A DNA stretch of 29,004 bases from positions 1 to 29,004 of the IMG/VR virus record IMGVR_UViG_3300022074_000272; one strand, given 5' to 3'. The stretch comes from a virus. This document shows positions 8,816-29,004 of the stretch, piece after piece (position 1 is the stretch's first letter; each line of letters begins with the position of its first letter). The translations under genes and the position numbers were made by a program. The notes beneath the pieces are model-generated. The model worked only from the letters and a program-made list of their open reading frames with translations. It was not told the DNA's origin and searched no databases.

Positions 8816-9709
8816 ATGGCTTTAGCACAATATACTCCAAAAGAATACTACAATAGTAAGAACCAAGGTTATTATCAATTTATATCAATTGACGATATTA
8901 TAAGTAATTTTCTTGTTTCTTATGTTGGAGATGATAAAATAATAAAATCTGCAAAAAGGACTGAAATTGCATACCATGCACAAAGAACTTTGCAAGAGCT
9001 AAGCTATGACACTATAGATAATGTTAAATCAATAGAAATTGAAATACCACCATCATTATCATTTCCATTGCCACACGATTTTGTTAGTTATGTAAGAATT
9101 ACTTGTTTAGATGATAATGGTCTTGAAAGACCTTTAAAGCCGACTAACAATACTACAGCCCCAACCCCTTTTCTTCAAGATCAAGATTATAATCTTTTAT
9201 ATGATAATCAGGGTAACGTATTATTAGGCAAAGAATCTGAAGCTTCAAAAAGGTTTAAGGCTCAAAACGACAACGCTACAGGCACCCCAGATCTATCAGA
9301 CACCAAATATTTAGAAGAAGGCGGAGGGATTAATGTTGATTTTGGTAAAAGATATGGTATTAATCCACAAGATGCAAATAGAAATGATACATTTATAATA
9401 GATCAACCAAGAGGTGTTATATCTTTTAGTAGCGGTGTTAAAAACAAAATAATAATTATAAAATACGTGTCGGACGGATTAAATGTTGACGGGGATATGA
9501 AAATACATAAGTTTGCGGAAGAAGCTATGTATAAGTCTATAGCATTGGCTATCATGTCTGCAAAAGCAAATATACCTGAATACCAAGTAAATAGATTAAA
9601 AAAAGAAAAGAAAGCTACAATGCGTTCAGCTAAAATTAGATTAGCTAACATTAATATGGAAGATCTCACTCAAACTATGAGAGGTAAATCAAAACAAATT
9701 AAACACTAA
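8816..9709 (+). CDS. Head-to-tail connector / ring protein (second, tail-tubular-like)
   Basis: A 297-residue protein next to the first ring protein and overlapping the muzzle ATG by one base (TAATG), which suggests coupled translation and shared assembly. Family-like segments include Y-Y-Q-F-I-S-I-D-D-I-I-S-N-F (about 19-32), A-Q-R-T-L-Q-E-L-S-Y-D-T (about 54-65) and P-L-P-H-D-F-V-S-Y-V-R-I (about 84-95). The last of these resembles the loop common to T7 gp11-type tail adaptors. A polar loop at about 105-195 and a basic C-terminal helix (K-K-E-K-K-A-T) complete it. It probably forms a ring between portal and muzzle. No enzymatic motif is visible. Confidence 0.72.
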   Translation: MALAQYTPKEYYNSKNQGYYQFISIDDIISNFLVSYVGDDKIIKSAKRTEIAYHAQRTLQELSYDTIDNVKSIEIEIPPSLSFPLPHDFVSYVRITCLDDNGLERPLKPTNNTTAPTPFLQDQDYNLLYDNQGNVLLGKESEASKRFKAQNDNATGTPDLSDTKYLEEGGGINVDFGKRYGINPQDANRNDTFIIDQPRGVISFSSGVKNKIIIIKYVSDGLNVDGDMKIHKFAEEAMYKSIALAIMSAKANIPEYQVNRLKKEKKATMRSAKIRLANINMEDLTQTMRGKSKQIKH

Positions 9710-12700
9710 TGGCAGAACTTAAGCATACTTTTACGTCGGGGAGAATGAATAAAGACCTCGACGACAGGCTTATACCAAATGGTGAATATATTGACGCATT
9801 AAACGTCAAAGTAGCATCGTCTGAGAGTTCTGATGTGGGAGCTATTGAAAATTTATTAGGTAACGAACAACTATCTGATTTTTATTCAAATGATAGCTCT
9901 GCCGTAACAATAGGTAGTATTTCTTATTCTTTAAAAAATAAAATATATTGGTTTGTAACTTCGGATGAAAGTGATGTTATTTATGAATATGATCAAAAAA
10001 CAAAAGAAACAAATGTTGTAATAAAAGATTCTAAAACTACAGAAACGGTAACTTTAGATCAAATAATATTAACAAGTAATGCTGATTCAGAATTAATAAT
10101 TCAAAATTATAATATAAATGAATTAGAAACAGTTATACAAAAACCTATACCTATTCAAATAGGGGAAGAGGTATTAATTGAACATAATATTGACATTACA
10201 TTGGAAGATCCTTATGTTAATATTTCTATTCCAAAAAATACAATATTAAGAAAAGAACAAAATGGTAATTTAGATCAACTTGTTTTTAAAAATATAATTT
10301 ATGATTTTCCTAAATTAGGTAATATATCCCCGACTGTTACATCTGTTAAATTTGGAATATTAAATTTTTCTAAAAAAAATAAAATTACTGGGATAAACAT
10401 AATAGACGATTTATTATTTTTTACTGATGGATTAAATCCTCCAAGAAGAATTTATATACCTAAATTTAAAAAATATTCTTTAAATAATCCTTCAGGAGAT
10501 ACTGAAATAGAATATAAAACAAAAGATGTAAATGGGGTTGTTAAAACATTAACACAACCTTTTACAGAAGAAGATATTTCTGTAGCGAAAAAAGCCCCAA
10601 TGAATGCTCCTGATGTTGAAGTTTTAAACAGTATAGATGGTGGGTTAACAAGCATTCAAGTTTCTTTAAATTTATTTGAAAAAATTACTGGAAATACAAT
10701 TGAAATAACAAATTTACCTCAAAACCCAATATGGCAAAAAGGAGATTCGGTTGAAATATTTTCTGAAGATACTGATATTCAAATACAGGCTACCGTTGTG
10801 AGTATAACTAACGATGTTTCTTTAAGTAAAAGAATAGTTTTAAGAGTCGATACTGTTGAAGACACAACTACGAACAGTTCTTTCCCTTTTGAGATTGAAT
10901 TAATACAGAAAAAACCTTTATATGAATTAAATTTTCCAAGATTTGCTTATAGATGGAAGTATGACAACGGGGAATACTCAACAATATCTCCTTTTTCTAT
11001 TCCCGCGTTTTTTCCAGGTGATTTTAACTATGATGGCAAAGAAGCTTTCAATAATGGGATGGTAAATAACGCTCAAAAAATAATATTAAAAAATTTTGAT
11101 ATAGGTGGTAAAGATATAAAAGAAATAGATATATTATTTAAAGAAACAAAAAACAATAATATATATGTTTATGAAACAAAAAAGAAAATTGATTTTGATT
11201 CATCTACAACGCCTGGAACTGTTGAAATTGAAAAAGAAAAAATTCATTCTATAATTCCTAATGATCAATTATTAAGGGCTTGGGATAATGTGCCTAAACG
11301 TGCTAAAGCTCAAGAAATAACTGCCAATAGAGTTATATACGGTAATTATTATCAAAACTATGATGTTCATACAGAACCAGATTTTAAAATAGGTATTGAA
11401 GAAAGAACCGACGGATTAAATAAAACTATAAAATCAGATAGAAATTATCAAATAGGTGTTATTTATATAGACGAGTATAATAGGCACACACCTGTTTTAA
11501 CCGGAAATAATAGTAGTATTAAAGTTGCTAAAAAAAATGCAATTACAAAAAACAAATTTAATATATCATTAGAAAATCAGCCGCCTGCTTGGGCTAAATA
11601 TTTTAAATATTATATTAAAGACCCCTCTAATGAATATTATAATTTAGCAGTAGATCGTATTTACCAAGATGAAGAAAACGGATTTACTTATGTTAGTTTT
11701 CCATCTGGCGAAAGAAATAAAATAACAGATGAGCATTATTTATTGTTAAAAAAGAAACACGGTGCTGACGAATTTGTAAATGATACTGCTAATAGGTATA
11801 AAATAATTGACATTAAGTCGGACCCGCCGGAGTTTATTACTAATAGAAAAAGAATTGTTTTATCTCTTGGTGATATAGTTTTTACAGATGACTTAGCCGG
11901 TAGTGGAGGTGGAAATCCAATTACAAATAAATCTAATGCTGAAAATAATGCTCCTTTAACAGACTATGCTTCGGTACAAATAAAACAAGCAAATGGCAGC
12001 TCTAATGGTGTAGAATTGACAGATACAGCTCAAATTAAACCCGGTCGGTATATTTCTTTTGAATACTTAGGAAGGGATTCAAAAAAATATCAAATAAAAA
12101 GACTAAGTCAACATCCTGAAGGGGCTAATGAAATAAAAATTGATTTTGAAGACCCTTTTAAAGAAGATGTAGAAAGAATTTATCAAAAAAATGGCAATTT
12201 AGGGGACACAACTACAAATTTTGGTGTTAATATGAATATTTGGGAAGAATATTCTGCAGCTGGCGATAAAGAATTTGATGGAAGATTTTTTGTTAAATTA
12301 AAAACTAATTCTACCCTTTCTTCCGCTATTGCTTCTCAAGACGTGGGCGGTGTTTCTTATTTAGCAAAAGAATCTGTTTCTTTAATAGGCGTCTATTCAA
12401 AAAATGAAGATTCATATAGAAGTAATAATGGTTATGAAAACAAAGCTAGAGGAAGAAACAATGCACATAGAGAGGCTGTAAATCCTTTCGTGCTATCTGA
12501 TGGCGGTTTAAAAACAGTAGGCTCTACTCCAGAAACAGGTAAACGACATAAGCAAGGAAGTATAGAGTATCATATTAGTTTTGAAGCAGCAACCCGTTTT
12601 TTAAATAATGAAGTTCTTAAATTATCTAAGTTAGCTAAAGTTGGAAATTTTGTTAGGTTTGTTAATGCCGACGGAACACCTCATCATGATACTATTTATG

Positions 12701-15700
12701 AAATAGGCAATGTGCTTATAGATGATCACCGAAGAGGTTTTGGAGGAACTAGAAGGAGAACATATAAGCGTATTCATTTTGCATTTATTGATAAAGATGG
12801 AGATCCTATTAAATTTCTTACAGAAAGTGTTTGTAGAAGAGGCCAGGACACTTGGGGAAAAGAACCTAAAATGGAAGTATTACAAGAAGTTGATGATGAT
12901 GTACAAGATTACATAAAAAACCCCGGCATATTTGAAACCGAACCTTTACAAAGCAAAACAGACTTAGACATATATTTTGAAACTCAAAAAGCGTATAGCA
13001 TAGAAGAGCATGGCCAAACTCATTCTTTAGATTGGTATAACGCTATATGTTTTGGCAATGGGGTTGAATCAAATAGAATAAGGGACGATTTTAATGCTAC
13101 TTTTATTGATTTAGGAGTTAGAGCATCTGCGCCTTTAGCTGAACAATTTAAAGAAGAACACAAATTTAACGGACTCATTTGGTCTGGCATAATAAATTCA
13201 AGATCAGGAACTAATCAATCAAACCAGTTTAATGTTGCTAATCCTATAACAAAAGATTTAATGCCATCATATGGTAGTATTCAAAAACTTTTTGCAAGAG
13301 ATAATGATTTAGTTATATATTGTGAAGATAAAATCGTAAGGGCTTTAGCTGATAAAGATATATTATTTAACGCGGATGGTTCTTCAAATGTTATAGCATC
13401 TAATCGCGTAATAGGCAATGTTATACCTTTTACAGGTGAATATGGTATTTCTACTTTGCCAGAATCTTTTGCTTCATATGGTTTTAGAGCTTATAATGCA
13501 GATCCAAAAAGAGGAGTTATAATAAGATTATCTAAAGATGGTATTACAACAATATCATCTAATTATATGAATGATTTTTTTGATGATAGATTAAAAAATA
13601 ATACTGTTCTTTATTCTTCTTATGATACTTCTAACGGCTTATATAATATAACTTTTGATGGATTAGACACAGTTTGTTTTGATGAAAATGTAAACGGGTG
13701 GGTAACAAGAAAATCTTATATACCTGAGAATGCTATTTCATTAAATAGTACATACTATTCTTATTATGCGGGTAATTTGTGGGAACATGGCAGCACTAAC
13801 GTTCCTAGAAACAATTTTTATAATACACAATACAACTCTGCTGTAGAATTTACAATAAATGATAATCCTTCTACAATTAAAAAATTTAAAACATTAGGAT
13901 ATGAAGGCACATCAGGTTGGATTGCTAAAGAAATACAAACAGACCAAGTAACTGGAACAGAAACATCTTTCAAAGATAAAGAAAATAAGTATTTTGCGAA
14001 TATTACTCAATCAGCAAAAACAATATCTACATTAGATCAAAAGAATTTTTCTGCTCAAGGTATTGGAAAATCGGTGGCAGCAGGTGCAAATTCTTACACA
14101 TCGCAACTTGGTAATGTTTCAAATACAACCGCAACATTTAATTTAAATTTAACTCCAAGCACATTAAAATCAACTGTTGTAACTAAAACACAAGCACCAG
14201 GTGAAGCAATTACTAATGTTGTATTTAAAATATTTGCAGCTACTGGATACCAAATAGATAGTAACGATTTTCAAGGTAATAATTTTAAATTTGAACAAGC
14301 AGCCGTAGATCAAGTTGTTGCAACATTATCTTTAAATGTAACACAACCTACATCCGACTCTTCATTTTCTTATGATGTAGTTGGTAAAACTAAAAAATTA
14401 CCTAGTAAAGTTAATGGTAATTATACTATTTCTGGAGATAATTTTAACTTTACAGAATCAAAAACAGGTACTTTTAATGTTCAAGGTACTTTAGGTATTG
14501 AAAAAATTATTAATAAAAGAATAATAACAGCTAAAAATGGATATTTTTTAACTGATTCGAGCTTTCTTTTAAATAATACTGAAATACAATTACAATTAAA
14601 TAGAATATCTGATACTGTTTATGAAATTATTGAAAGCGTTTTTATTTCTAATAATACGAATACATTAGACTACACAATTACAATAACTCCTTCAGAAATA
14701 GTTGTTTTAGATAAACTTATTTATTCTAAAAATATTGATATAACTGTTTTACCTAATGCAGCAACCCAAAGAATATTAACAGTAAAAGGTGAAAAAGATG
14801 CAGAGGTAAACATATTATTTAGTGGTAATGTAACTGGAACAATAACGGATGTTAATATAAAATTAGATAATACCAATAGAAAAGAAATATTTTTAGATTT
14901 TCCAGCGGGTAATACAGCTGAAACATTTACAATATTGTTTAAAAATTTAAAAGGTACAAAAATAGACACTGGATTTGGAAGTAATACAGTAACTATTTCT
15001 AGAGTAGCTAAAGTGAGAAAAAATGCTGTTCTTGCTATTATTCATTCCAGTACAGCTCAAGAATTTTTTGAAATATCAGATTATATAAATACAGCTAATA
15101 AAAGAGATTTTTCAATTGAATTAACTTTGCCTTCAGGCTCTTATACTATAGGTAAGCAACCAACAAATGCAGATGTTGATTTTGGGTCTAATGATAATAA
15201 TGCAGACATTTCGTTTAATCAAATGACTTTTGCCGCTAGCCCCAATACTAATAAAGTTACAGTTTCAGGAACTTTAAAAATTGATGACTTAATTCAAGAC
15301 GAAACATATACTTTAGATATTAGCAATCTTGTAGGTATTAATGTTACAACTACATTTGATTACGATAATAATTCTAAAGATGGATCAAGCTCTGGTAATT
15401 ATACGGCTGTTTCAACAACTTATACTGTTACAGGGGGTGCAGGATTAATATCAACACCATCAGCAACAGAATATTTTTGGACGCTAACACCTGCATCGGG
15501 GTATTTGTTTAAGGATAGTATTGATGCAGATGATTTTGAGTTTTTAGACAGCGGTAATAATAGTGTATTAAATACCTTTGCCGATAGTAATGAATTATTA
15601 CTTAGAAAAGTAAATAGTACTTTAGAGATTGGTTTTAAATCACAAAATTTTACACAACCTGCAACTAGTCAAACATTTACTATTAGACCTAAAAATAGCA

Positions 15701-17742
15701 CAACACTTACAGAAACTAAACCAGCAACTAGTGCTCCCTTTGTCACTTTACAAGTAAGATTTGAAGGTAAATTAGACGATATTGATGCTGCAGAATTTGC
15801 AATACCTACGGCACTCTCTTCTCAATTAAATAATAATCCAACTGGTTTATCAAATCATACTGTTAATGCAAGAGCTACTAATTTACCTCATAATGCAAAT
15901 TATTTATTTCAAGCCGTAATACCCGTAGGTGTATTAAAAGATTATGGAGTAATTGACCCAAATGATTTTTCAGATGCAAGTAAATTTAGGTATACAGAAG
16001 TTCATGGTGCTTCTAAACTTGCACAGCCTTCTGGTTCCGCTACATATAATTTATTTACTGCAAATTCTTCTACACAAGCAATTACAAGTAAATATTCTTA
16101 TAATACAACCACACATGAACTAACTATTAATATATTAGTTAATTTACAAAGCGACGCAACTTCTGTAATGTTAAAAGCTACTATAGAAGGAGTATTACAT
16201 TCTGACAAAAAATACGACGGCACAACTCTTGTTGATAAATATCATTTAGTATCAGCAAAATCAGATGTTGATTGCACTCATCAACCCGGTAATAGCAATG
16301 AAAATGTTAAACAATATTCAACAAATGACGCTACAAATAGCAGCTTCCCAAAATATTGGGTTACAGACAAAACATTACCTGATGGTAGTAAAATATATAA
16401 ACAAGAAAGCGCTAGTGTTGCAAAACCTGGTTTATTATATGGTGCAGGATTATCCACACAATCTTTTATAGTCGCAGGTGATAAAAGTTTATATAATTCT
16501 AATAATGGTGTAATAACTAAAAAAGAAATTTGTCAAATTATTACTAAAAATAGCAGTGGCGTTGTAACAGATCCTGTTGATTTAATGCAATATGATTATG
16601 ATTGGCATCCTGGGTTTTATCAACACAATGTATACAAAGACACTGCTGAAAATTATATTAATATTAAAAGTGAAATTTACAAAGATACCCTTGTAAAAAT
16701 TAAAGGCCGATGGAAAGTACATGATTTTGATGATACTGATCCTTCTTCAGGCATAAATGTTATTTATAATGATTTTGCAACACCTACAATATGGAGTTCC
16801 CAAAACCAAGTTCCTAATGGGAGTGGAAGTGTAGGGGCACTTAATCCTATAATGTCTTCTTTAATTAATTATAATATTGTAAAAAATCAATTGCAAAGTG
16901 AAGCCGGCATATCTAGTGTATTTGTAAATGATAAAATTAAAATTATTTCAGATCCTTATTTAACTAATTATGGTGAATTAGAAGCTACAATATATTTTGA
17001 TAAAGATGGTATAGGCGTATTTCCAGCAGAGGTATATAGAGGCAAAAGAGGTTATAGAATTTATATAGAATTACAAAATGTTCTTGACCAAACATATATA
17101 AGGCTTCGTAAGCTTTTTTTAAGTCAAGGATATAGTTTAGCAAATGCAGAAGCAAAGGCTCGTACTCAAACGCCAGCTATTGGCCAATATGGCATGAGTC
17201 TTTATCCTAGAATAAATTTACAAGCAGTTGCTTTATATAGACCTTTTGTGGATCTTTCTATTGCACTTAGTGTTAGTAATAGTCGTTCAGGAAAAAATAG
17301 AGGACTTTATGCAACACAGGGATATCTTACTCATATAGGAGGCGGTCAATATTCAATTTCAGGTTCTAGTGGTTTTACACAAATAAGCAGCGTACAAAGT
17401 TATTATGGATTAAAAACAGTAAAACTTTTAGCAGGGCCTAGCAGCGGAAGTGTTACACCGGTATACCCTTATTGGGATGGCAATGTAGATTGGCCTTTTC
17501 AAGGATTAAGGCGTGTGGGTGCTGGTACTTATTCAGCTCATGCTATAGATCCGGCTACAAATAAACCTTTATCGGCTAAATTATATTCTATTCTTGGCGC
17601 AAGCACTATATCAACAGGTAAAAGACAAAGTTTATTTTACAATTCATATAGAACCGACATAAGATTAATTAGATCGGAATTACAAGGAGGAGATGGTATA
17701 GCAGCTGAAAATACTGATTATTGGAAATATGAAATTATATAA
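9709..17742 (+). CDS. Giant stabilisation / muzzle (tail) protein with adhesin-like extension
   Basis: A 2677-residue structural protein that should seal the portal and form the distal part of the short tail. The start is marked by M-N-K-D-L-D-D-R-L (about 14-22) and by P-N-G-E-Y and D-A-L-N-V just after, the hallmark of the stabilisation/muzzle family in crAss-like and marine podovirus-like phages. The family-like core seems to end near residue 1425, at a K-D-K-E-N-K-Y-F-A-N motif. About 1430-2150 is Ser/Thr/Asn-rich beta sequence with several loosely repeated segments. About 2150-2677 is a further unrepeated domain with aromatic and Gly/Ser-rich stretches. This extension suggests host binding. 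It overlaps the preceding stop by one base and is followed two bases later by the next gene. Core assignment is good; the extension's role is inference. Confidence 0.82.
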   Translation: MAELKHTFTSGRMNKDLDDRLIPNGEYIDALNVKVASSESSDVGAIENLLGNEQLSDFYSNDSSAVTIGSISYSLKNKIYWFVTSDESDVIYEYDQKTKETNVVIKDSKTTETVTLDQIILTSNADSELIIQNYNINELETVIQKPIPIQIGEEVLIEHNIDITLEDPYVNISIPKNTILRKEQNGNLDQLVFKNIIYDFPKLGNISPTVTSVKFGILNFSKKNKITGINIIDDLLFFTDGLNPPRRIYIPKFKKYSLNNPSGDTEIEYKTKDVNGVVKTLTQPFTEEDISVAKKAPMNAPDVEVLNSIDGGLTSIQVSLNLFEKITGNTIEITNLPQNPIWQKGDSVEIFSEDTDIQIQATVVSITNDVSLSKRIVLRVDTVEDTTTNSSFPFEIELIQKKPLYELNFPRFAYRWKYDNGEYSTISPFSIPAFFPGDFNYDGKEAFNNGMVNNAQKIILKNFDIGGKDIKEIDILFKETKNNNIYVYETKKKIDFDSSTTPGTVEIEKEKIHSIIPNDQLLRAWDNVPKRAKAQEITANRVIYGNYYQNYDVHTEPDFKIGIEERTDGLNKTIKSDRNYQIGVIYIDEYNRHTPVLTGNNSSIKVAKKNAITKNKFNISLENQPPAWAKYFKYYIKDPSNEYYNLAVDRIYQDEENGFTYVSFPSGERNKITDEHYLLLKKKHGADEFVNDTANRYKIIDIKSDPPEFITNRKRIVLSLGDIVFTDDLAGSGGGNPITNKSNAENNAPLTDYASVQIKQANGSSNGVELTDTAQIKPGRYISFEYLGRDSKKYQIKRLSQHPEGANEIKIDFEDPFKEDVERIYQKNGNLGDTTTNFGVNMNIWEEYSAAGDKEFDGRFFVKLKTNSTLSSAIASQDVGGVSYLAKESVSLIGVYSKNEDSYRSNNGYENKARGRNNAHREAVNPFVLSDGGLKTVGSTPETGKRHKQGSIEYHISFEAATRFLNNEVLKLSKLAKVGNFVRFVNADGTPHHDTIYEIGNVLIDDHRRGFGGTRRRTYKRIHFAFIDKDGDPIKFLTESVCRRGQDTWGKEPKMEVLQEVDDDVQDYIKNPGIFETEPLQSKTDLDIYFETQKAYSIEEHGQTHSLDWYNAICFGNGVESNRIRDDFNATFIDLGVRASAPLAEQFKEEHKFNGLIWSGIINSRSGTNQSNQFNVANPITKDLMPSYGSIQKLFARDNDLVIYCEDKIVRALADKDILFNADGSSNVIASNRVIGNVIPFTGEYGISTLPESFASYGFRAYNADPKRGVIIRLSKDGITTISSNYMNDFFDDRLKNNTVLYSSYDTSNGLYNITFDGLDTVCFDENVNGWVTRKSYIPENAISLNSTYYSYYAGNLWEHGSTNVPRNNFYNTQYNSAVEFTINDNPSTIKKFKTLGYEGTSGWIAKEIQTDQVTGTETSFKDKENKYFANITQSAKTISTLDQKNFSAQGIGKSVAAGANSYTSQLGNVSNTTATFNLNLTPSTLKSTVVTKTQAPGEAITNVVFKIFAATGYQIDSNDFQGNNFKFEQAAVDQVVATLSLNVTQPTSDSSFSYDVVGKTKKLPSKVNGNYTISGDNFNFTESKTGTFNVQGTLGIEKIINKRIITAKNGYFLTDSSFLLNNTEIQLQLNRISDTVYEIIESVFISNNTNTLDYTITITPSEIVVLDKLIYSKNIDITVLPNAATQRILTVKGEKDAEVNILFSGNVTGTITDVNIKLDNTNRKEIFLDFPAGNTAETFTILFKNLKGTKIDTGFGSNTVTISRVAKVRKNAVLAIIHSSTAQEFFEISDYINTANKRDFSIELTLPSGSYTIGKQPTNADVDFGSNDNNADISFNQMTFAASPNTNKVTVSGTLKIDDLIQDETYTLDISNLVGINVTTTFDYDNNSKDGSSSGNYTAVSTTYTVTGGAGLISTPSATEYFWTLTPASGYLFKDSIDADDFEFLDSGNNSVLNTFADSNELLLRKVNSTLEIGFKSQNFTQPATSQTFTIRPKNSTTLTETKPATSAPFVTLQVRFEGKLDDIDAAEFAIPTALSSQLNNNPTGLSNHTVNARATNLPHNANYLFQAVIPVGVLKDYGVIDPNDFSDASKFRYTEVHGASKLAQPSGSATYNLFTANSSTQAITSKYSYNTTTHELTINILVNLQSDATSVMLKATIEGVLHSDKKYDGTTLVDKYHLVSAKSDVDCTHQPGNSNENVKQYSTNDATNSSFPKYWVTDKTLPDGSKIYKQESASVAKPGLLYGAGLSTQSFIVAGDKSLYNSNNGVITKKEICQIITKNSSGVVTDPVDLMQYDYDWHPGFYQHNVYKDTAENYINIKSEIYKDTLVKIKGRWKVHDFDDTDPSSGINVIYNDFATPTIWSSQNQVPNGSGSVGALNPIMSSLINYNIVKNQLQSEAGISSVFVNDKIKIISDPYLTNYGELEATIYFDKDGIGVFPAEVYRGKRGYRIYIELQNVLDQTYIRLRKLFLSQGYSLANAEAKARTQTPAIGQYGMSLYPRINLQAVALYRPFVDLSIALSVSNSRSGKNRGLYATQGYLTHIGGGQYSISGSSGFTQISSVQSYYGLKTVKLLAGPSSGSVTPVYPYWDGNVDWPFQGLRRVGAGTYSAHAIDPATNKPLSAKLYSILGASTISTGKRQSLFYNSYRTDIRLIRSELQGGDGIAAENTDYWKYEII
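14100..15720 (+). repeat. Diverged beta-sandwich-like protein repeats in the muzzle extension
   Basis: Several segments share a loose pattern: a short beta strand, then a Gly-Tyr turn, then an Asp/Ser acidic loop and a Phe-rich strand. Examples start near residue 1505 (F-K-I-F-A-A-T-G-Y-Q-I-D), 1601 (I-T-A-K-N-G-Y-F-L-T-D) and 1920 (T-P-A-S-G-Y-L-F-K-D). A weaker copy is near 1799. Thr-rich strands ending in I-T-P or I-R-P separate them. DNA identity between copies is low, so the repeats are old. They resemble immunoglobulin-like modules of adhesins, but no named domain is claimed. Confidence 0.5.
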
Positions 17743-20196: not shown

Positions 20197-23100
20197 ATGG
20201 AAGAAAATGAAATCTATATTGTAGATGGTCAAAAATACGAAGTAAACCCAAAAAGAAAAAATGATTTTTTTAAAAAATATCCGAATGCGGTATTATTTGA
20301 AGAACCAGTAAAGATAAACCCCAATGCTCAGGGTGCGGCTGCGGGAGGGGAACAAGCACCCAATACGGATTCCAATTTGGGAAATGGTTCATTGGTATTC
20401 GAACCACCAAAATATGAACAGCAATTTAAAACTTATTTAGACGGGAAAGAAAAAAATAAAGAACAGCGTTTAGAATTTTTAAATAGCGGGCTTGATGCTT
20501 ATGAACCTAAAATATCTAGTGAGGATGCTCTTTCTTATGCAAACATTCTTACAAATAAAATAGATTTTAAAAATTTAAAAGAAGAAGAAGACATATCAGC
20601 TTCTTTAAATACCTCCTTATCCTCTTTAATAAAAGGAGATGAATATATTCAAAAACATTTATTACCTGATCTTCAAGAAATAATACAACCTAAAATAGAT
20701 ACATTTAAAAAACTATTAGAAGGAAAGTATGATTTAACAGATATTAATGAAGTTCAAGAAGCTAATAAAAAATTAGAGTATTATGCTACTCAATTATATG
20801 GTAAAACTATTAGAAATAACAGAACATATAACAATAGAATAAATACTTATAAAGAGGCTGTTTTAGAATCTTATAATAATAAATTTAAAGATTTATCAGA
20901 CGAACAACGCCAAAAGCTAGTAGAGGCAAAAAGAAAAGAATTAGGCATTGCCGATGATACTATGCTAACTGAAGGTGTTAAAAAAGGATTAAGAAATATA
21001 AGTATTGGAATACAAAAAACAGATTTGTCTTTTAAAAATACAAATATACTTAAGCTACAAAAATCAATTGAAGGCTTAAATGATAATGATTTTGTTACAG
21101 AAGAAAGTGGTGCTCAACCTGGTTTACAAGGCGCTCAATATGCTAAAAGAACAAAAGTTTCTGATATAAAACTTCAAATTGCTCAACAAAAAATTTCATT
21201 AATAAATAATTTTGTAGATTTAAGGGGTGATGAAGCAGAATTAGCTTTTTTTAGAAAAGGAGAAACAGAGGGTTTATTACCTAAAAGTTTTGGTGATTTA
21301 GCTTTTTTAGTTGGTGAACAAATACCTCAATTACCTCTTGCTGTTGTAACTTTTGGGGCTGGAGTATTTGCACAAGAATACGGTAATGCATATTTTGATA
21401 CTATTATGGCAAAAATGGAAGCTAATGGTGAAGAATATACAGAAGAAAGATTTTTAGAATATTTAGATTCAGGAGAAGGTGATGCTGCAATTGCGGCGGT
21501 GTCCGCAACAATACAATCCGCTTTAGAATTTGCCGGAGCTGCAACTATAGTTGGGACTTTGATTACAAAGCCAGGTAAAGCAATTCTAAGAACTCTTATG
21601 AAAGATGGAGTTAAAAAATTTATAAGAGCAGGTGGTTTGCAAAGAGGAGGAAAAAATGTAGCAAGAGGATATTTAACAGAATATTTAACAGAAAGCTTTC
21701 AAACTCTTACTTCACAAATTTCAAAAGGATACTCTATTAACGATATAGATAAATATATTGACTTTGATGAAATACAAAAATCTGGGGCTGCGGGTGGCTT
21801 AGTTGGGTTTTTCTTACCATTTGGCAAACAAGTTGCAACACAAACTATAAGAGAAACAAAAGCTGTGACTAATAATATTATTGCAAAGTTTGATCCTAAT
21901 TCTCAAGCGGCAATTTTAAATAATCTTAAAAAAGAAATTACTGCTGCTGTATTAAGTAAAAAAATTACTGAACAAGAAGGTGAGGCTAAAATCAATGCTA
22001 TAAGTGATATTGAAAATTCAAATGCTACGATACCAAAAATTGTTAAAGGTGAAAAAAGAATTGAAGCTATAGAATTATTAATAGAAAAAAGAAAATTAGA
22101 AAACGAAAACCAAAACATTGATAAAGTATTTAAACCAGAAGAACAAATTCAAGAAATTAATCAAAAATTAGGCAAAATATTTATTGAATCAAAAATATCT
22201 AATGAATTACAAAATCAAATTGTTAAAGGAAAACTTTTTGCAAATGAATTAGAAAGAAAATTAGAAACTATAGAAATTAATTCAAAAGAAGAGTTTGTAA
22301 AAAAAGGAAAAGAGTTGGGTGAAAGTTGGGATTTAACCGATGGCGGAAGAATTACTACAGATAAAAAAACAGGTGAATCTAAAATTTATATAAATAAAGT
22401 TGCAGCTGCTGAAACAAGGAATGTTACTGTAATGGGCCATGAAGTATATCATCACGGGCTATTTTCAATTTTACGCACTGAAGAAAATAAAACTGTAGTT
22501 GTTGAACTTTCTAATTTGTTAAAAGAACATATTAAAACTTTAGATCCTGAAACTTTTGGAGAGGATTCATTTTTAGGACAAGTAATGAAAAAATATGAAA
22601 ATGATCCTAATTATACAGAGCAGATGACAGCTGAAGAATTATTTACTTCTATATCTGATTTGTATAACAATCCTTTTCTTAAACTAGATGAAGGCTTTTT
22701 AACTAGGATAGGTGATTTTATAAGAAGGCTATTACAAGACTTAGGATTTAAAAAAATTAAGTTTGATCCCGAGAATAAAGGTAAAGATATATTTAACTTT
22801 ATTAAAGATTATAGTTATTCTGTAAGGAAAGGAAAAACAAGTGGTGCTATAATTAAAGCATTAAATAAAGGTGTTGCAATAAGTCCTGAAATAGAATCCA
22901 AAGCACAAGCAATAGACGATGTGGTAAGCCAAGCGAGTAAAAGTGTTGAACTATCTGAAAAAGCTACAGAGTTATATAGTCAAAAAGGTATTGAAGCAGC
23001 AGGTGAAATAATAGAGCTATTTGATAAACCGTTAAATAATATAGTACAAAAATATAGAAGTGTTCCAAAATATAATTTTCAAGATTTAAAAGATGCTATT

Positions 23101-26100
23101 TCATTTGATCCTGATAGAGGTTTACTGGGCCTTATAATGAAATATAATCCTGATTCTAATGTACCTATTGCGGCATATATAAACAAATACTTAGCACAAA
23201 GATCTAAAGAATTCGCTCAAAAATTATTAGGTACTGAATTTGAATCTGACGTTACCGAAGCAAGGGGTGTAACTGATACTACTACAGAAGAAGTTACTGA
23301 AACACAAGAAACAAAACCTAAAAAAGATTTAGCAGAACAGCTTAATATAACGGAAAAATTAAAACAAGAAGTTTTGCAAGCAACAGAGGCTACGTTTGGT
23401 ACAAGACTTCCTCAAATAACTTCAAAAGAATTTGCTAAAGAATTGACTAAAAACTTTAGAATAAAGTTACAGCCTAAAATTTTAAAACTTGCGGGCAAAG
23501 GTGTTGCTTATGAAACTTTTTTAAGAGATAACTTTGAAACAATATATAAAATTCTTCCGCAGTCTACTATTAATAAAAGATTCAAACCTTTTAAAGAGCC
23601 TGTAATTGACAAGAAAACAGGCAAGCAATTAAGAGAAAGAACAGCAGAAGGTAATAAAGTTTTTATAAAAAAGAAAATATCTAAAGCAGAATGGGTTAGT
23701 TATTTTTTAGGAACAGAAGTAAAAAGGTCTACACAGGGCACACGTAAAACATCTATAGTTGAAGAAGTGGGGGTTGAACTTGCATTTGATGCTGTAAATG
23801 AAATAGTTAAGGACCCTAGTATAATGAATAAATTTAAAGATATTCAAGAATTACAGGGTAATACTTTAGCGGAAAATTATATTGCGGAAATAACAAAACA
23901 AATAGATAGAAATCCAAACTCAAAAGCATCGAAAGGGTTAACCCCTAGTGAGTTTTCGGATATTGCCTTTGAATTTGCAAAAATATTAAAAGAAGATGAA
24001 GGAGTTTTTGATCGTTTTAATAACTATAGGCCTAAAGGATTTACTGAAGATCAACTTGATTTTGTAAAAGATTTTACTATTAAATTATTTGACAACGGTG
24101 TTATTAAAGGAGATACTTTTGGGGGACTAATTTTTGAAGAAGCGCTTGCAAACCAAATGAAAGAATATGGGTTGCCTGTATTAGGTAGTGGAGCCGGATA
24201 TGATAATAACAGCCCAGATTTACAATTTAAGCAAGAAGGGCAAGAAAAACCTTTTTATTTAGAGGCTAAAAAAAGTATAACAGCCAGAATGGGAGGTGGT
24301 AGTTCTCGAGTTTATTTTTCTGGCACAGATCTTAAAGAAGCTAGAATAGATTTTATACGTAACAAAAAAATAGTTGATAGAAAAGATTTACCAAATGTTG
24401 GATTATTTGAAGCTTTTTTTGAAAGGAACATGCCGGCTGTTCGTGAAGCATTGAATTTTATTAATAAAATGGAAAAAGAAATTAATCCCGGAAAACCTGA
24501 GCAAACTCAATTTCCATTAAAAGGAACTATAAAAAGAGAAACTCTCGAAGCACTAGAAAAACAAGAATTCTATAAAAAAGCGTTTGGAAAAGGTATAAAA
24601 ATTACTGTTACAAGCCTTGAAAAGCATTATAATGATAAAGATAATTTTTATATACATATTGGTAAGGGAAAGGGAACTTATTTTATAGGCCAAAATATTA
24701 AAAATTTACCAGCTGATAGATTTGATGTCGAATTAAAAATGGATTTTTATTTAAAATCGAGTGGGAGTGGGACTAATAAGAATAGAGAAAACAATTTAAT
24801 ATATACTGCTTTTAGAAATGAAATGTCTGTTTTTAACTCAAAAAAAGTAAAGCCTTCTAAATTTAATATAGAAAATAAAATTGATGCGGAAATATTAAAA
24901 GAAAAACTTACGTCTAAAGCATCGAAAGGATTAAGCAGACAGTTTAATGAATTATTACAAGCTACATCAGGTGTACCATGGTATGAAAAGTTTTCACCTG
25001 CAAAAGCACAACTTGTTGGACAATCAAAAGGCAGATTTAAATTCTTTATACCCTATTCAGCTGAAGACTTTATGGGATTATTATATGCTACTCTTGGTGA
25101 AGGAAAACTTGGTAACCAGCAAAAACAATGGTATGAAGATAATTTAATAAGACCATTTTCACGCGGTATACAAGCATGGCAAAGAGAAAAAGAAAATTCA
25201 CTTAGAGAGTGGGCAGCATTAAAAAAAGAAGCAAGTAAAGATGTACCACTTAATCTTACAAAAAAGAACAGTACTGGATTTACAAATCAAGATTCTGTAA
25301 GATTATATATATGGTCTAAACAAGGAATGCCTATTGAAGGTATTCTTAAAAAAGAAATAAATGAAAATATAAAAATTGTAAGAAATGATCCTTTATTAAA
25401 AGCTTTTGCTGAAAGATTAATGGTTTTAAACCCAGAAGGTTATCCTGCTCCTACAAGTAATTGGACTTCCGGCGATATTACAACCGATCTTGTAGCCTAT
25501 GTTAATGATGTGAGAAGAACTGAATTTTTAGAAGAGTGGAGTAACAATGTAGATTTAATATTTACTGATGCAAATAAAAACAAACTACGAGCATTATACG
25601 GAAACGGATATGTTGAAGCATTAGAAGATATTCTTACCAGAATGAAAACCGGTAGAAACAGAAGATCAAGCGCTGGAAAAATTGAAAAAGCATTTTTAGA
25701 TTGGACAAATGATTCAGTTGGAACTATTATGTTCTTTAATACCAGATCTGCATTATTACAAACTTTATCTGCTGTAAACTTTATAAACTTTAGTGATAAT
25801 AATCCTGTTATGGCTGGACTAGCTTTAGCTAATTTTCCACAATATGTTAAAGACTTTACAACATTATTTAATTCAGACTTTTTAAAACAAAGACGATCTG
25901 GTTTACAAATAGATGTAAATGCAGATGAAATTGCTAATTCTGCTAAAACGTCAAAAAATAAAGTAAGAGCAATATTAAGTGCTATTCTTAAATTTGGTTT
26001 TACACCAACACAAATAGCGGATTCATTTGCAATTGCTTCAGGTGGTGCTTCGTTTTATAGAAACAGAATAAATAAATATAAGAAAGGGGGAATGACAGAA

Positions 26101-26931
26101 CAGCAAGCTGAACAGCAAGCATTTTTAGATTTTCAAGAAATAGCAGAAGAGACACAACAATCTGCAAGACCTGATAGAATTTCAATGCAACAAGCAGGTG
26201 GTTTAGGCCGTCTTATATTAGCTTTTGGTAACACCCCTATGCAATATGCTCGTCTTAGTAAAAAGGCTGCATTAGATTTAATTAATGGAAGAGGAGATTG
26301 GAAGACAAATATCAGTAAGATTATGTATTATAGCGTAATACAAAATATTATATTCTCATCCTTACAATCTGCTTTATTTACGCTTCTGTTTGACGACACA
26401 ACAGAAGATGACGAAAAGAAAAGATATTTTAGATTAATCAATCAAAGCGCAGATTCTATTTTAAGAGGTGTTGGTGTTTATGGTGCTGTTGCTTCAACAG
26501 TAAAAAATGTAATATTAGAAATTATAGAACAATCTAAATCAAAAAGACCAGATTATGCAGATGCAGCAATTGAAGCTACTCAACTGTCACCTCCTATTAA
26601 TTCTAAACTAAGAAAATTAATTTCTGCAGGTAATACTTTTACATTTAAACAATCTAAAGAAAAAGTATTTACTGAAGGATTTAGCTTAGATAATCCTGCT
26701 TTTTTAGCTGGTGGTAAAATACTTTCAGTTGGCTTAAATTTACCAGCTGATAGAGTTATTTTAAAATTAGATCACTTATATACTGCAATGAAACCAGAAA
26801 CAGAGCTTTGGCAATCTATAGCTTTAACCCTTGGGTATTCTGAGTGGGATTTAAATATGATTGAAAAACAAACAAAAAGAGATTTTCAAAAAGAAATTAA
26901 CAGAATAGAAAGAATATTAAAAAAATTATAA
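20197..26931 (+). CDS. Giant multidomain cargo (polyvalent) protein with zincin-like and nuclease-like domains
   Basis: A 2244-residue protein that most likely travels inside the virion and enters the cell with the DNA. Visible parts in order: a polar N-terminus; helical region 100-350; a hydrophobic/amphipathic stretch at about 365-480; an H748-E749-V-Y-H752-H-G metallopeptidase-like motif with a candidate third ligand in A-E813-E814-L-F; linker 880-1240; a 331-residue block (1243-1573) with P1340-D1341 followed after 14 residues by E1356-A-K1358, the PD-(D/E)XK pattern; and a C-terminal region (about 1580-2244) resembling the conserved tail of marine phage polyvalent proteins, with a hydrophobic helix near 2041-2065. 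The stop overlaps the next ATG (TAATG). That it is a cargo-type protein is fairly sure; enzyme activities are predicted from motifs only, and cleavage into smaller proteins is possible. Confidence 0.78.
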   Translation: MEENEIYIVDGQKYEVNPKRKNDFFKKYPNAVLFEEPVKINPNAQGAAAGGEQAPNTDSNLGNGSLVFEPPKYEQQFKTYLDGKEKNKEQRLEFLNSGLDAYEPKISSEDALSYANILTNKIDFKNLKEEEDISASLNTSLSSLIKGDEYIQKHLLPDLQEIIQPKIDTFKKLLEGKYDLTDINEVQEANKKLEYYATQLYGKTIRNNRTYNNRINTYKEAVLESYNNKFKDLSDEQRQKLVEAKRKELGIADDTMLTEGVKKGLRNISIGIQKTDLSFKNTNILKLQKSIEGLNDNDFVTEESGAQPGLQGAQYAKRTKVSDIKLQIAQQKISLINNFVDLRGDEAELAFFRKGETEGLLPKSFGDLAFLVGEQIPQLPLAVVTFGAGVFAQEYGNAYFDTIMAKMEANGEEYTEERFLEYLDSGEGDAAIAAVSATIQSALEFAGAATIVGTLITKPGKAILRTLMKDGVKKFIRAGGLQRGGKNVARGYLTEYLTESFQTLTSQISKGYSINDIDKYIDFDEIQKSGAAGGLVGFFLPFGKQVATQTIRETKAVTNNIIAKFDPNSQAAILNNLKKEITAAVLSKKITEQEGEAKINAISDIENSNATIPKIVKGEKRIEAIELLIEKRKLENENQNIDKVFKPEEQIQEINQKLGKIFIESKISNELQNQIVKGKLFANELERKLETIEINSKEEFVKKGKELGESWDLTDGGRITTDKKTGESKIYINKVAAAETRNVTVMGHEVYHHGLFSILRTEENKTVVVELSNLLKEHIKTLDPETFGEDSFLGQVMKKYENDPNYTEQMTAEELFTSISDLYNNPFLKLDEGFLTRIGDFIRRLLQDLGFKKIKFDPENKGKDIFNFIKDYSYSVRKGKTSGAIIKALNKGVAISPEIESKAQAIDDVVSQASKSVELSEKATELYSQKGIEAAGEIIELFDKPLNNIVQKYRSVPKYNFQDLKDAISFDPDRGLLGLIMKYNPDSNVPIAAYINKYLAQRSKEFAQKLLGTEFESDVTEARGVTDTTTEEVTETQETKPKKDLAEQLNITEKLKQEVLQATEATFGTRLPQITSKEFAKELTKNFRIKLQPKILKLAGKGVAYETFLRDNFETIYKILPQSTINKRFKPFKEPVIDKKTGKQLRERTAEGNKVFIKKKISKAEWVSYFLGTEVKRSTQGTRKTSIVEEVGVELAFDAVNEIVKDPSIMNKFKDIQELQGNTLAENYIAEITKQIDRNPNSKASKGLTPSEFSDIAFEFAKILKEDEGVFDRFNNYRPKGFTEDQLDFVKDFTIKLFDNGVIKGDTFGGLIFEEALANQMKEYGLPVLGSGAGYDNNSPDLQFKQEGQEKPFYLEAKKSITARMGGGSSRVYFSGTDLKEARIDFIRNKKIVDRKDLPNVGLFEAFFERNMPAVREALNFINKMEKEINPGKPEQTQFPLKGTIKRETLEALEKQEFYKKAFGKGIKITVTSLEKHYNDKDNFYIHIGKGKGTYFIGQNIKNLPADRFDVELKMDFYLKSSGSGTNKNRENNLIYTAFRNEMSVFNSKKVKPSKFNIENKIDAEILKEKLTSKASKGLSRQFNELLQATSGVPWYEKFSPAKAQLVGQSKGRFKFFIPYSAEDFMGLLYATLGEGKLGNQQKQWYEDNLIRPFSRGIQAWQREKENSLREWAALKKEASKDVPLNLTKKNSTGFTNQDSVRLYIWSKQGMPIEGILKKEINENIKIVRNDPLLKAFAERLMVLNPEGYPAPTSNWTSGDITTDLVAYVNDVRRTEFLEEWSNNVDLIFTDANKNKLRALYGNGYVEALEDILTRMKTGRNRRSSAGKIEKAFLDWTNDSVGTIMFFNTRSALLQTLSAVNFINFSDNNPVMAGLALANFPQYVKDFTTLFNSDFLKQRRSGLQIDVNADEIANSAKTSKNKVRAILSAILKFGFTPTQIADSFAIASGGASFYRNRINKYKKGGMTEQQAEQQAFLDFQEIAEETQQSARPDRISMQQAGGLGRLILAFGNTPMQYARLSKKAALDLINGRGDWKTNISKIMYYSVIQNIIFSSLQSALFTLLFDDTTEDDEKKRYFRLINQSADSILRGVGVYGAVASTVKNVILEIIEQSKSKRPDYADAAIEATQLSPPINSKLRKLISAGNTFTFKQSKEKVFTEGFSLDNPAFLAGGKILSVGLNLPADRVILKLDHLYTAMKPETELWQSIALTLGYSEWDLNMIEKQTKRDFQKEINRIERILKKL
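23923..23940 (+). repeat. Direct repeat, upstream copy (encodes KASKGL)
   Basis: AAAGCATCGAAAGGGTTA, preceded by a serine codon, encodes S-K-A-S-K-G-L at residues 1242-1248. It matches the downstream copy at 17 of 18 bases and lies in the same frame. Confidence 0.8.
23923..24915 (+). other. In-frame inserted nuclease-like module inside the cargo gene
   Basis: The block is 993 bases (331 codons) from one copy of an 18-base repeat to the next, so its loss by recombination would leave the reading frame intact. It encodes residues 1243-1573. Upstream acidic residues sit in G-G-L-I-F-E1314-E1315. The P1340-D1341 ... E1356-A-K1358 pattern follows, then a Gly-rich loop (M-G-G-G-S-S) and an F-S-G-T strand. 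The second half has aromatic beta strands (F-Y-I-H-I-G-K-G-K-G-T-Y-F-I-G). This resembles restriction-enzyme-fold nucleases. Specificity cannot be read from sequence. Confidence 0.6.
24916..24933 (+). repeat. Direct repeat, downstream copy (encodes KASKGL)
   Basis: AAAGCATCGAAAGGATTA encodes the second S-K-A-S-K-G-L at residues 1573-1579, which runs on into the conserved C-terminal region of the cargo protein (S-R-Q-F-N-E-L-L). It differs from the upstream copy only at the third base of the glycine codon. Confidence 0.8.
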
Positions 26932-28164: not shown

Positions 28165-29004
28165 TTATCCATCGCAGCTTAAACAGTTAGGATCCATAGC
28201 CGCTGCCGCTATATCTCCCCTCAACACGGATTCAGTTCTCATATAATATAAAGTTTTAATCCCGCGCTTCCATGCTTCCATATGAACTTGGTTGATCCAT
28301 CTTGGCGTTGCCTCTGACGGAAATGCTAAATTCAATGAAGCAGATTGATCTATGTAGTCTTGGCGTATTCCTGCCTGTCTTACAAGTTCAAGTTGATTTA
28401 TTTCTTTAAATGTTTTAAAAACATTCTTTATTGATTCCCCTTCTTCTTGGTTTAATCGTCCTCTTTCATCGTAAAACCATCCATCGAGCTGCTTAAGTCC
28501 TTGAACGGATCCACCATCTTCCAAAATTTTGTCCCAAGTTTCTTTGTTATCAATACCAATTTTTCTAAGTGCTTTTTTAAGTTCATTGTTTTTTCTTATA
28601 AATGTACCCTTAGCTGATTGTTCTGTAAATACATTAGCGGCCCACGGTTCAATACCCGCTGAAGTGTTACCAGCTAATTTACTATTAGATACAGTTGGGG
28701 CTGTTGCTCTTAAATGTGTGTTTCTAAATCCTGTTCCAACGCACCAAAGTGGTTCCCCGTATGTTTCCGCTAATGCTCTTGAAGCGCGTTCGGTTTCAAT
28801 TTTTATTTTTGAAAAGATTTCTCGCGTTTTGAATTGTGCTAATAAGCCTTCGAAAGCTATACCATTTTTCTGTAACAGGCTGTGCCATCCAAGGACACCA
28901 AGTCCAAGTGCCCTGCCTTTCTCCGCACTGCGTACAGAGTTCTCGAATCCTTTCATATTCTTTGCCCTCTGAATAAATTCTTCTAGCACACCGTCCAGGA
29001 ACCA
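28165..29004 (-). CDS. nrdA: Ribonucleotide reductase large subunit (class I NrdA), N-terminal part outside the window
   Basis: The C-terminal ~280 codons of the class I enzyme that reduces ribonucleoside diphosphates to deoxy forms for phage DNA synthesis. Evidence includes R-A-L-G-L-G-V-L-G-W-H-S-L-L-Q, N-T-H-L-R-A-T-A-P-T, then S-A-G-I-E-P-W-A-A-N-V-F, and the late S-A-S-L-N-L-A-F-P and R-G-I-K-T-L-Y-Y-M-R-T-E-S motifs. The end C-L-S-C-D-G carries the CxxC pair that reloads the active site from thioredoxin or glutaredoxin. The frame stays open to base 29004 (W-F-L-D-G precede the GTG at 28989), so that GTG is internal and the gene continues beyond the window. It is leftward, the start of an early/metabolic module. 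The small subunit gene nrdB is not seen here. Confidence 0.94.
   Translation of the reverse strand, partial: WFLDGVLEEFIQRAKNMKGFENSVRSAEKGRALGLGVLGWHSLLQKNGIAFEGLLAQFKTREIFSKIKIETERASRALAETYGEPLWCVGTGFRNTHLRATAPTVSNSKLAGNTSAGIEPWAANVFTEQSAKGTFIRKNNELKKALRKIGIDNKETWDKILEDGGSVQGLKQLDGWFYDERGRLNQEEGESIKNVFKTFKEINQLELVRQAGIRQDYIDQSASLNLAFPSEATPRWINQVHMEAWKRGIKTLYYMRTESVLRGDIAAAAMDPNCLSCDG

Follow-up and report, generated by a model that had tools for sequence, protein, structure and literature searches.

The 2244-residue protein encoded by the phage DNA analysed here has a slot between its conserved N-terminal part and its C-terminal domain, and in homologues this slot carries alternative, unrelated modules. 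The modules are exchanged by recombination, and the exchange seams concentrate at a short sequence motif that also marks other domain joints of the protein. We consider it reasonably likely that residues 1249–1572 form an exchangeable nuclease cassette in a giant, polyvalent-type virion-cargo protein that is injected and cut at its junctions.

The giant protein and its gene neighbourhood

The window, which is the whole stretch of DNA analysed, is a complete IMG/VR record of 29,004 bp and represents a fragment of a podovirus-type genome. The genes are ordered as terminase, portal, structural genes, muzzle-like tail protein (PF25729), three small genes, and the 2244-residue open reading frame, which closes the structural block downstream of the muzzle-like gene (Table 1). 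The terminases nearest to that of the window are from an environmental podovirus, Flavobacterium elemoviruses, and Cellulophaga phages. The muzzle-like protein (window positions 9709–17742) is unusually long, with 2677 residues compared to 1470 in elemovirus elemoA. A partial gene for the large subunit of ribonucleotide reductase is located at the edge of the record (28165–29004, minus strand).

The gene of the giant protein is the positional equivalent of elemovirus gp21, which is annotated as "structural protein"; sequence similarity between the two proteins is absent. The giant protein is probably packaged, as judged from the synteny with a gene annotated as structural, and probably injected into the host. 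The cargo proteins of crassviruses, whose large cargo-type genes likewise follow a muzzle-type gene (PMC10172136), provide an analogy only, and, unlike them, the protein of the window has no similarity to any phage record found in the searches. The C-terminal domain gave nothing above the cut-off in Pfam.

Table 1 Positions and supporting evidence of features in the gene of the giant protein
Feature	Window position	Strand	Basis
Giant multidomain protein, 2244 residues, probable virion cargo (polyvalent-type)	20197..26931	+	Open reading frame and translation; synteny
HEVYH, residues 748–752, active-site motif of zincin-like metallopeptidase domain	22438..22452	+	HExxH alignment of 17 seed homologues
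QASKSV, residues 912–917, degenerate junction motif after zincin domain	22930..22947	+	KFSKS/RFSKS at aligned position in relatives
N-side junction motif SKASKGL, residues 1242–1248, first repeat copy	23920..23940	+	Aligns with FKFSKSL of homologues
Exchangeable cassette, residues 1249–1572, predicted PD-(D/E)XK-type nuclease	23941..24912	+	Homologue swaps, L025 identity block, invariant residues, model
E1314, invariant helix glutamate of predicted active site	24136..24138	+	E66 of alignment A3
D1341, invariant aspartate (D of P-D)	24217..24219	+	D93 of alignment A3
E1356-A-K1358, invariant E-x-K	24262..24270	+	E108 and K110 of alignment A3
C-side junction motif SKASKGL, residues 1573–1579, second repeat copy	24913..24933	+	Aligns with KFSKSL-type C boundary in homologues
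Conserved C-terminal domain, residues 1580–2244, no known family	24934..26928	+	Query basis for homologue searches

Exchange of modules in the slot

Starting from the C-terminal domain, 22 loci were found, and profile searches added many others, which resulted in a set of 153 distinct proteins from IMG/VR. No relatives were found with the first 1248 residues as the query. The cassette of the window is shared closely only by L024/L025, which are one contig. In the other members of the window's clade, the N-terminal part aligns to approximately residue 1245 and the C-terminal domain from approximately residue 1576, whereas the slot between them is variable in sequence and between 289 and 573 residues long. 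Sorting of the modules of 83 classified proteins with iterative HMMs identified the PD-(D/E)XK-like module in 11 and an unrelated module, with a Glu and a His as its only invariant residues, in 60; the remaining 12, some of which are partial, have neither. Modules differ even between proteins with C-terminal domains that are 96% (L023 and L014), 92% (L051 and L046), or 91% (L041 and L045) identical. The swappable slot suggested in a preliminary description of this DNA is thus borne out by unrelated domains at the same point in homologues.

Comparison of the window with L025 indicates how far an exchanged block extends. The DNA identity is 65–67% in the N-terminal part, 89% in the cassette, and 77–78% in the C-terminal domain, and third bases of the codons at conserved residues are 87% identical within the cassette compared to 60–72% outside it. 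The fitted breakpoints are at residues 1252–1259 and 1568–1592, close to the repeats; as had been proposed, the block between them was transferred as a whole. In other swap pairs, the DNA similarity stops at DLQFSKT, DIIQFSKS, DIIQF, or TIKFS, and is regained at or close to the FSK or YSK copy that follows. Among 30 disjoint phage pairs, 27 of 60 exchange seams (45%) are within five residues of the motif x-[F/Y/A]-S-K, compared to 6.2% of random positions (binomial p of about 3e-17); for about half of the seams, the position does not coincide with any recognised copy of the motif.

In the pairs examined, no downstream gene switches together with the module in the manner of an immunity gene, which argues against a classical toxin–immunity pair. 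In the L051/L046 pair, the DNA similarity runs unchanged past the end of the gene, and between L084 and L086 it extends over 5.2 kb starting inside the HAD domain.

The slot module is often followed by a HAD-like domain. The Glu-His module, the commonest in the slot (L012:7933–8982 and 24 relatives, alignment A4), has a confident, mostly helical AlphaFold2 model (pLDDT 87), for which a fold search of the PDB gave no match; it is possibly a new enzyme family, and an HNH-like reading of it is unproven. In L002 (7255–9015) and also in L007, the Glu-His module is preceded by a DUF6934-like domain, and each joint carries a KFSL-type motif; the slot can therefore hold two domains in series. L017 and L023 contain an ART-like domain of approximately 140 residues, with a weak match to PF18760 (ART-PolyVal), which is absent from the close relative L014. 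It is inserted within the HAD-like domain, after NVLYTMP and before NKLDAEQFAK, a site that is a second exchange or insertion point without the FSK motif at its edges.

The predicted nuclease module

The module of the window is very probably a metal-dependent nuclease of the PD-(D/E)XK type, as predicted because of its residue pattern and the topology of its model. The P1340-D1341 and E1356-A-K1358 residues named in the preliminary description are present between the repeats, and an alignment of 11 modules, which apart from L025 are approximately 20% identical, has five invariant residues: E1314, D1341, E1356, K1358, and Y1478. In the AlphaFold2 model (pLDDT 77, pTM 0.75), the first four of these are placed on a helix and strands in the order expected for the superfamily, that is, a helix Glu, D, and E-x-K. 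The nuclease-like appearance noted earlier is thus supported at the level of prediction. The module differs from the superfamily in an additional conserved C-terminal part containing the invariant Tyr, and from its solved members in having no significant sequence or fold match to any of them. Searches of the modules against Pfam, PADLOC, and PDB sequences provided nothing decisive, and the module of the window has neither a Pfam match nor a significant fold match in the PDB.

A fold match was identified in BFVD to Q58MG2, a 225-residue protein of phage P-SSM2 (E 1e-10), and at the sequence level the HMM of the module family matches two cyanophage proteins, PSSM2_192 and PTIM40_181, which are encoded near uvsX, gp41, and mazG. 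PSSM2_192 (Q58MG2) is homologous over most of the module of the window (E 4e-25 against a set of three sequences); it differs in being a single-domain gene in a replication cluster, outside any giant protein. It is encoded at L092:6001–6678, and like other cyanophage relatives it is unannotated and stands alone in the uvsX-gp41-mazG cluster of T4-like cyanophages.

The absence of both a PDB fold match and a curated family match would be expected if the module were inactive or a non-nuclease domain resembling PD-(D/E)XK enzymes in its motif only. This is improbable, since the residues invariant among the 11 divergent sequences are of the catalytic type and are kept in the stand-alone cyanophage relatives. 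The predicted nuclease could serve the phage's own DNA metabolism, for example in branch resolution or end trimming, rather than act as a weapon against the host or other phages. The position of the cyanophage relatives among replication genes, a weak match of the L008 module to a PHROG annotated as Holliday junction resolvase (E 0.023), and the lack of an immunity gene switching with the module all point in this direction. However, replacement by an unrelated module between close relatives would fit conflict effectors better than core replication enzymes, and we regard a role in DNA metabolism as a credible but less favoured option.

The junction motif and its possible processing

Both 18-base repeat copies (23923–23940 and 24916–24933) encode SKASKGL in the same frame, and they are identical at 17 of 18 positions and 993 bp apart, exactly as originally reported. 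The gene contains three same-frame pairs matching at 17 or more of 18 positions; codon-shuffled versions of it average 0.53 such pairs, and 42% of these versions have one or more. Because shuffling yields pairs as good at this rate, the DNA repeat alone is weak evidence, near chance. The repeat owes its significance to the motif pattern in homologues: the DNA match by itself is compatible with chance, but the conservation of the motif is not. The statement that the gene has no such repeats elsewhere was not quite right, since a third, degenerate relative, QASKSV, is located upstream.

At both slot edges, SKASKGL aligns with FKFSKSL of homologues and is, by this alignment, the version of a motif of approximately K/Q-[F/Y/A]-S-K-[S/T] found in the window's lineage. 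Upstream of the C-terminal domain, the strict pattern [KRQ][FY]S[KR][STAN] was counted 89 times compared to 4.1 times in shuffles, which overstate independence because the homologues are related; the test of seams in disjoint pairs is the least affected. Inside the C-terminal domain, the pattern is at shuffle level (2 compared to 2.4). The motif definitions were refined after inspection of the data, and the different analyses relied on several regular expressions that were not equally strict. In most motif-bearing homologues, copies flank the slot whichever domain fills it. The motif also precedes the HAD domain and is present at joints without seen exchange, for example after the zincin domain. 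Copies within one gene often differ at synonymous sites, so that conservation is greater in amino acids than in DNA, and the amino acids of the two copies vary together across the window's clade. The phages' other open reading frames contain the strict pattern only three times in 102,000 residues; such a background level does not support a general phage maturation-protease site. Our literature searches found no publication describing the motif, and one may nevertheless exist.

The near-identical DNA of the two copies flanking the module had suggested that a nuclease domain was inserted once at a single motif, which it duplicated. This model is largely refuted and retains very little probability: copies of the motif flank unrelated modules in other homologues and sit at other domain joints, an equally good DNA repeat is near chance in the gene, and no homologue in the set was found to combine an empty slot with a single motif, the shortest slot in the window's clade being 289 residues long. 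The single K-x-S-K-G-L running into the C-terminal region, mentioned in the preliminary description, corresponds to the C-side copy, although a second copy is usually present upstream. From the alignments, the repeats are better read as conserved junctions, two members of a junction family that changed together, than as the scar of one insertion.

The domain that might act on these junctions is located upstream in the same protein. HEVYH at residue 748 has the HExxH pattern with a downstream conserved Glu, aligned in 17 seed homologues, and most homologues have a zincin HExxH upstream. Sixteen proteins of the window's clade contain HExxH; at the C boundary, 15 of them conform to [KRQ]xS[KR], two in degenerate form (KESKSL and RESKSL), and the sixteenth, L029, has KFSSSK; all five proteins of the clade without HExxH also lack the C-boundary motif. 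A single transferred block, instead of five independent losses, may account for the link within the clade. It is weaker across all lineages (Fisher p 0.004, without correction for relatedness): among the 143 full-length proteins, the exceptions are eight that retain the C-boundary motif despite lacking HExxH and 39 that have HExxH but no such motif, and a strict rule that the motif accompanies the zincin holds only partly. Autoprocessing by embedded zincins was proposed for polyvalent proteins by Iyer et al. 2017 (PMC5512222). Here the zincin domain may likewise process the junctions of its own protein, a reading that the sequence comparisons support in part.

According to the proposed mechanism, the giant protein would be packaged in the virion and injected into the host, and the zincin domain or another protease would cut at the junction motifs. 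The nuclease would be freed as a separate enzyme and could act on DNA early in infection. We tentatively propose that the phage protein is a polyprotein that cleaves itself, with a single short site as both cleavage signal and exchange seam. We give similar weight to the motif being a mere recombination seam or flexible linker, an in-frame homology or permissive joint read by no protease. The concentration of seams at the motif, its retention in some lineages without any HExxH, and the joint change of both copies in the window and L025, as under gene conversion between repeats, would all fit a seam. The higher conservation of the motif in amino acids than in DNA, its presence at joints without seen exchange, and its absence from the five HExxH-less proteins of the window's clade speak against this reading.

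Polyvalent proteins, as described in the available parts of PMC5512222, are likewise giant, multidomain, and probably injected, with an embedded zincin metallopeptidase. They combine several disparate activities per polypeptide, as do the zincin-motif domain and nuclease-like module of the window, and HAD-like and ART-like domains of homologues add to a polyvalent-type mix; the ART-like domain, a PolyVal hallmark, is a weak match in some homologues. Unlike polyvalent proteins, the protein of the window has no match to a Pfam polyvalent (LPD) domain, and a defined exchange slot with a recurrent junction motif was not found described in those parts of PMC5512222.

Polymorphic toxins of the CDI, Rhs, and MuF types (compare PMC3482391 and PMC5576092) likewise have a conserved carrier, a conserved junction motif, and exchangeable catalytic modules, unrelated putative nucleases among them. 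They differ from the protein of the window, in which the module lies within the chain and not at the C-terminus, no immunity gene downstream changes along with the module in the pairs examined, and the carrier is a phage cargo-type protein.

The cassette protein is a new variation on the polyvalent-protein theme, and it resembles the tip exchange of polymorphic toxins without a switching immunity gene. If it is a self-cleaving polyprotein, any domain flanked by the site could be swapped without loss of the reading frame and would become an independent effector on release in the host. The conserved carrier, the exchange slot, and the sequence-readable junction motif provide a testable rule for how phages may re-arm their injected proteins. 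The motif aids the prediction of domain boundaries in giant proteins beyond the reach of family searches and flags numerous candidates for early effectors. It also makes the autoprocessing by zincins that was proposed for polyvalent proteins testable at named residues.
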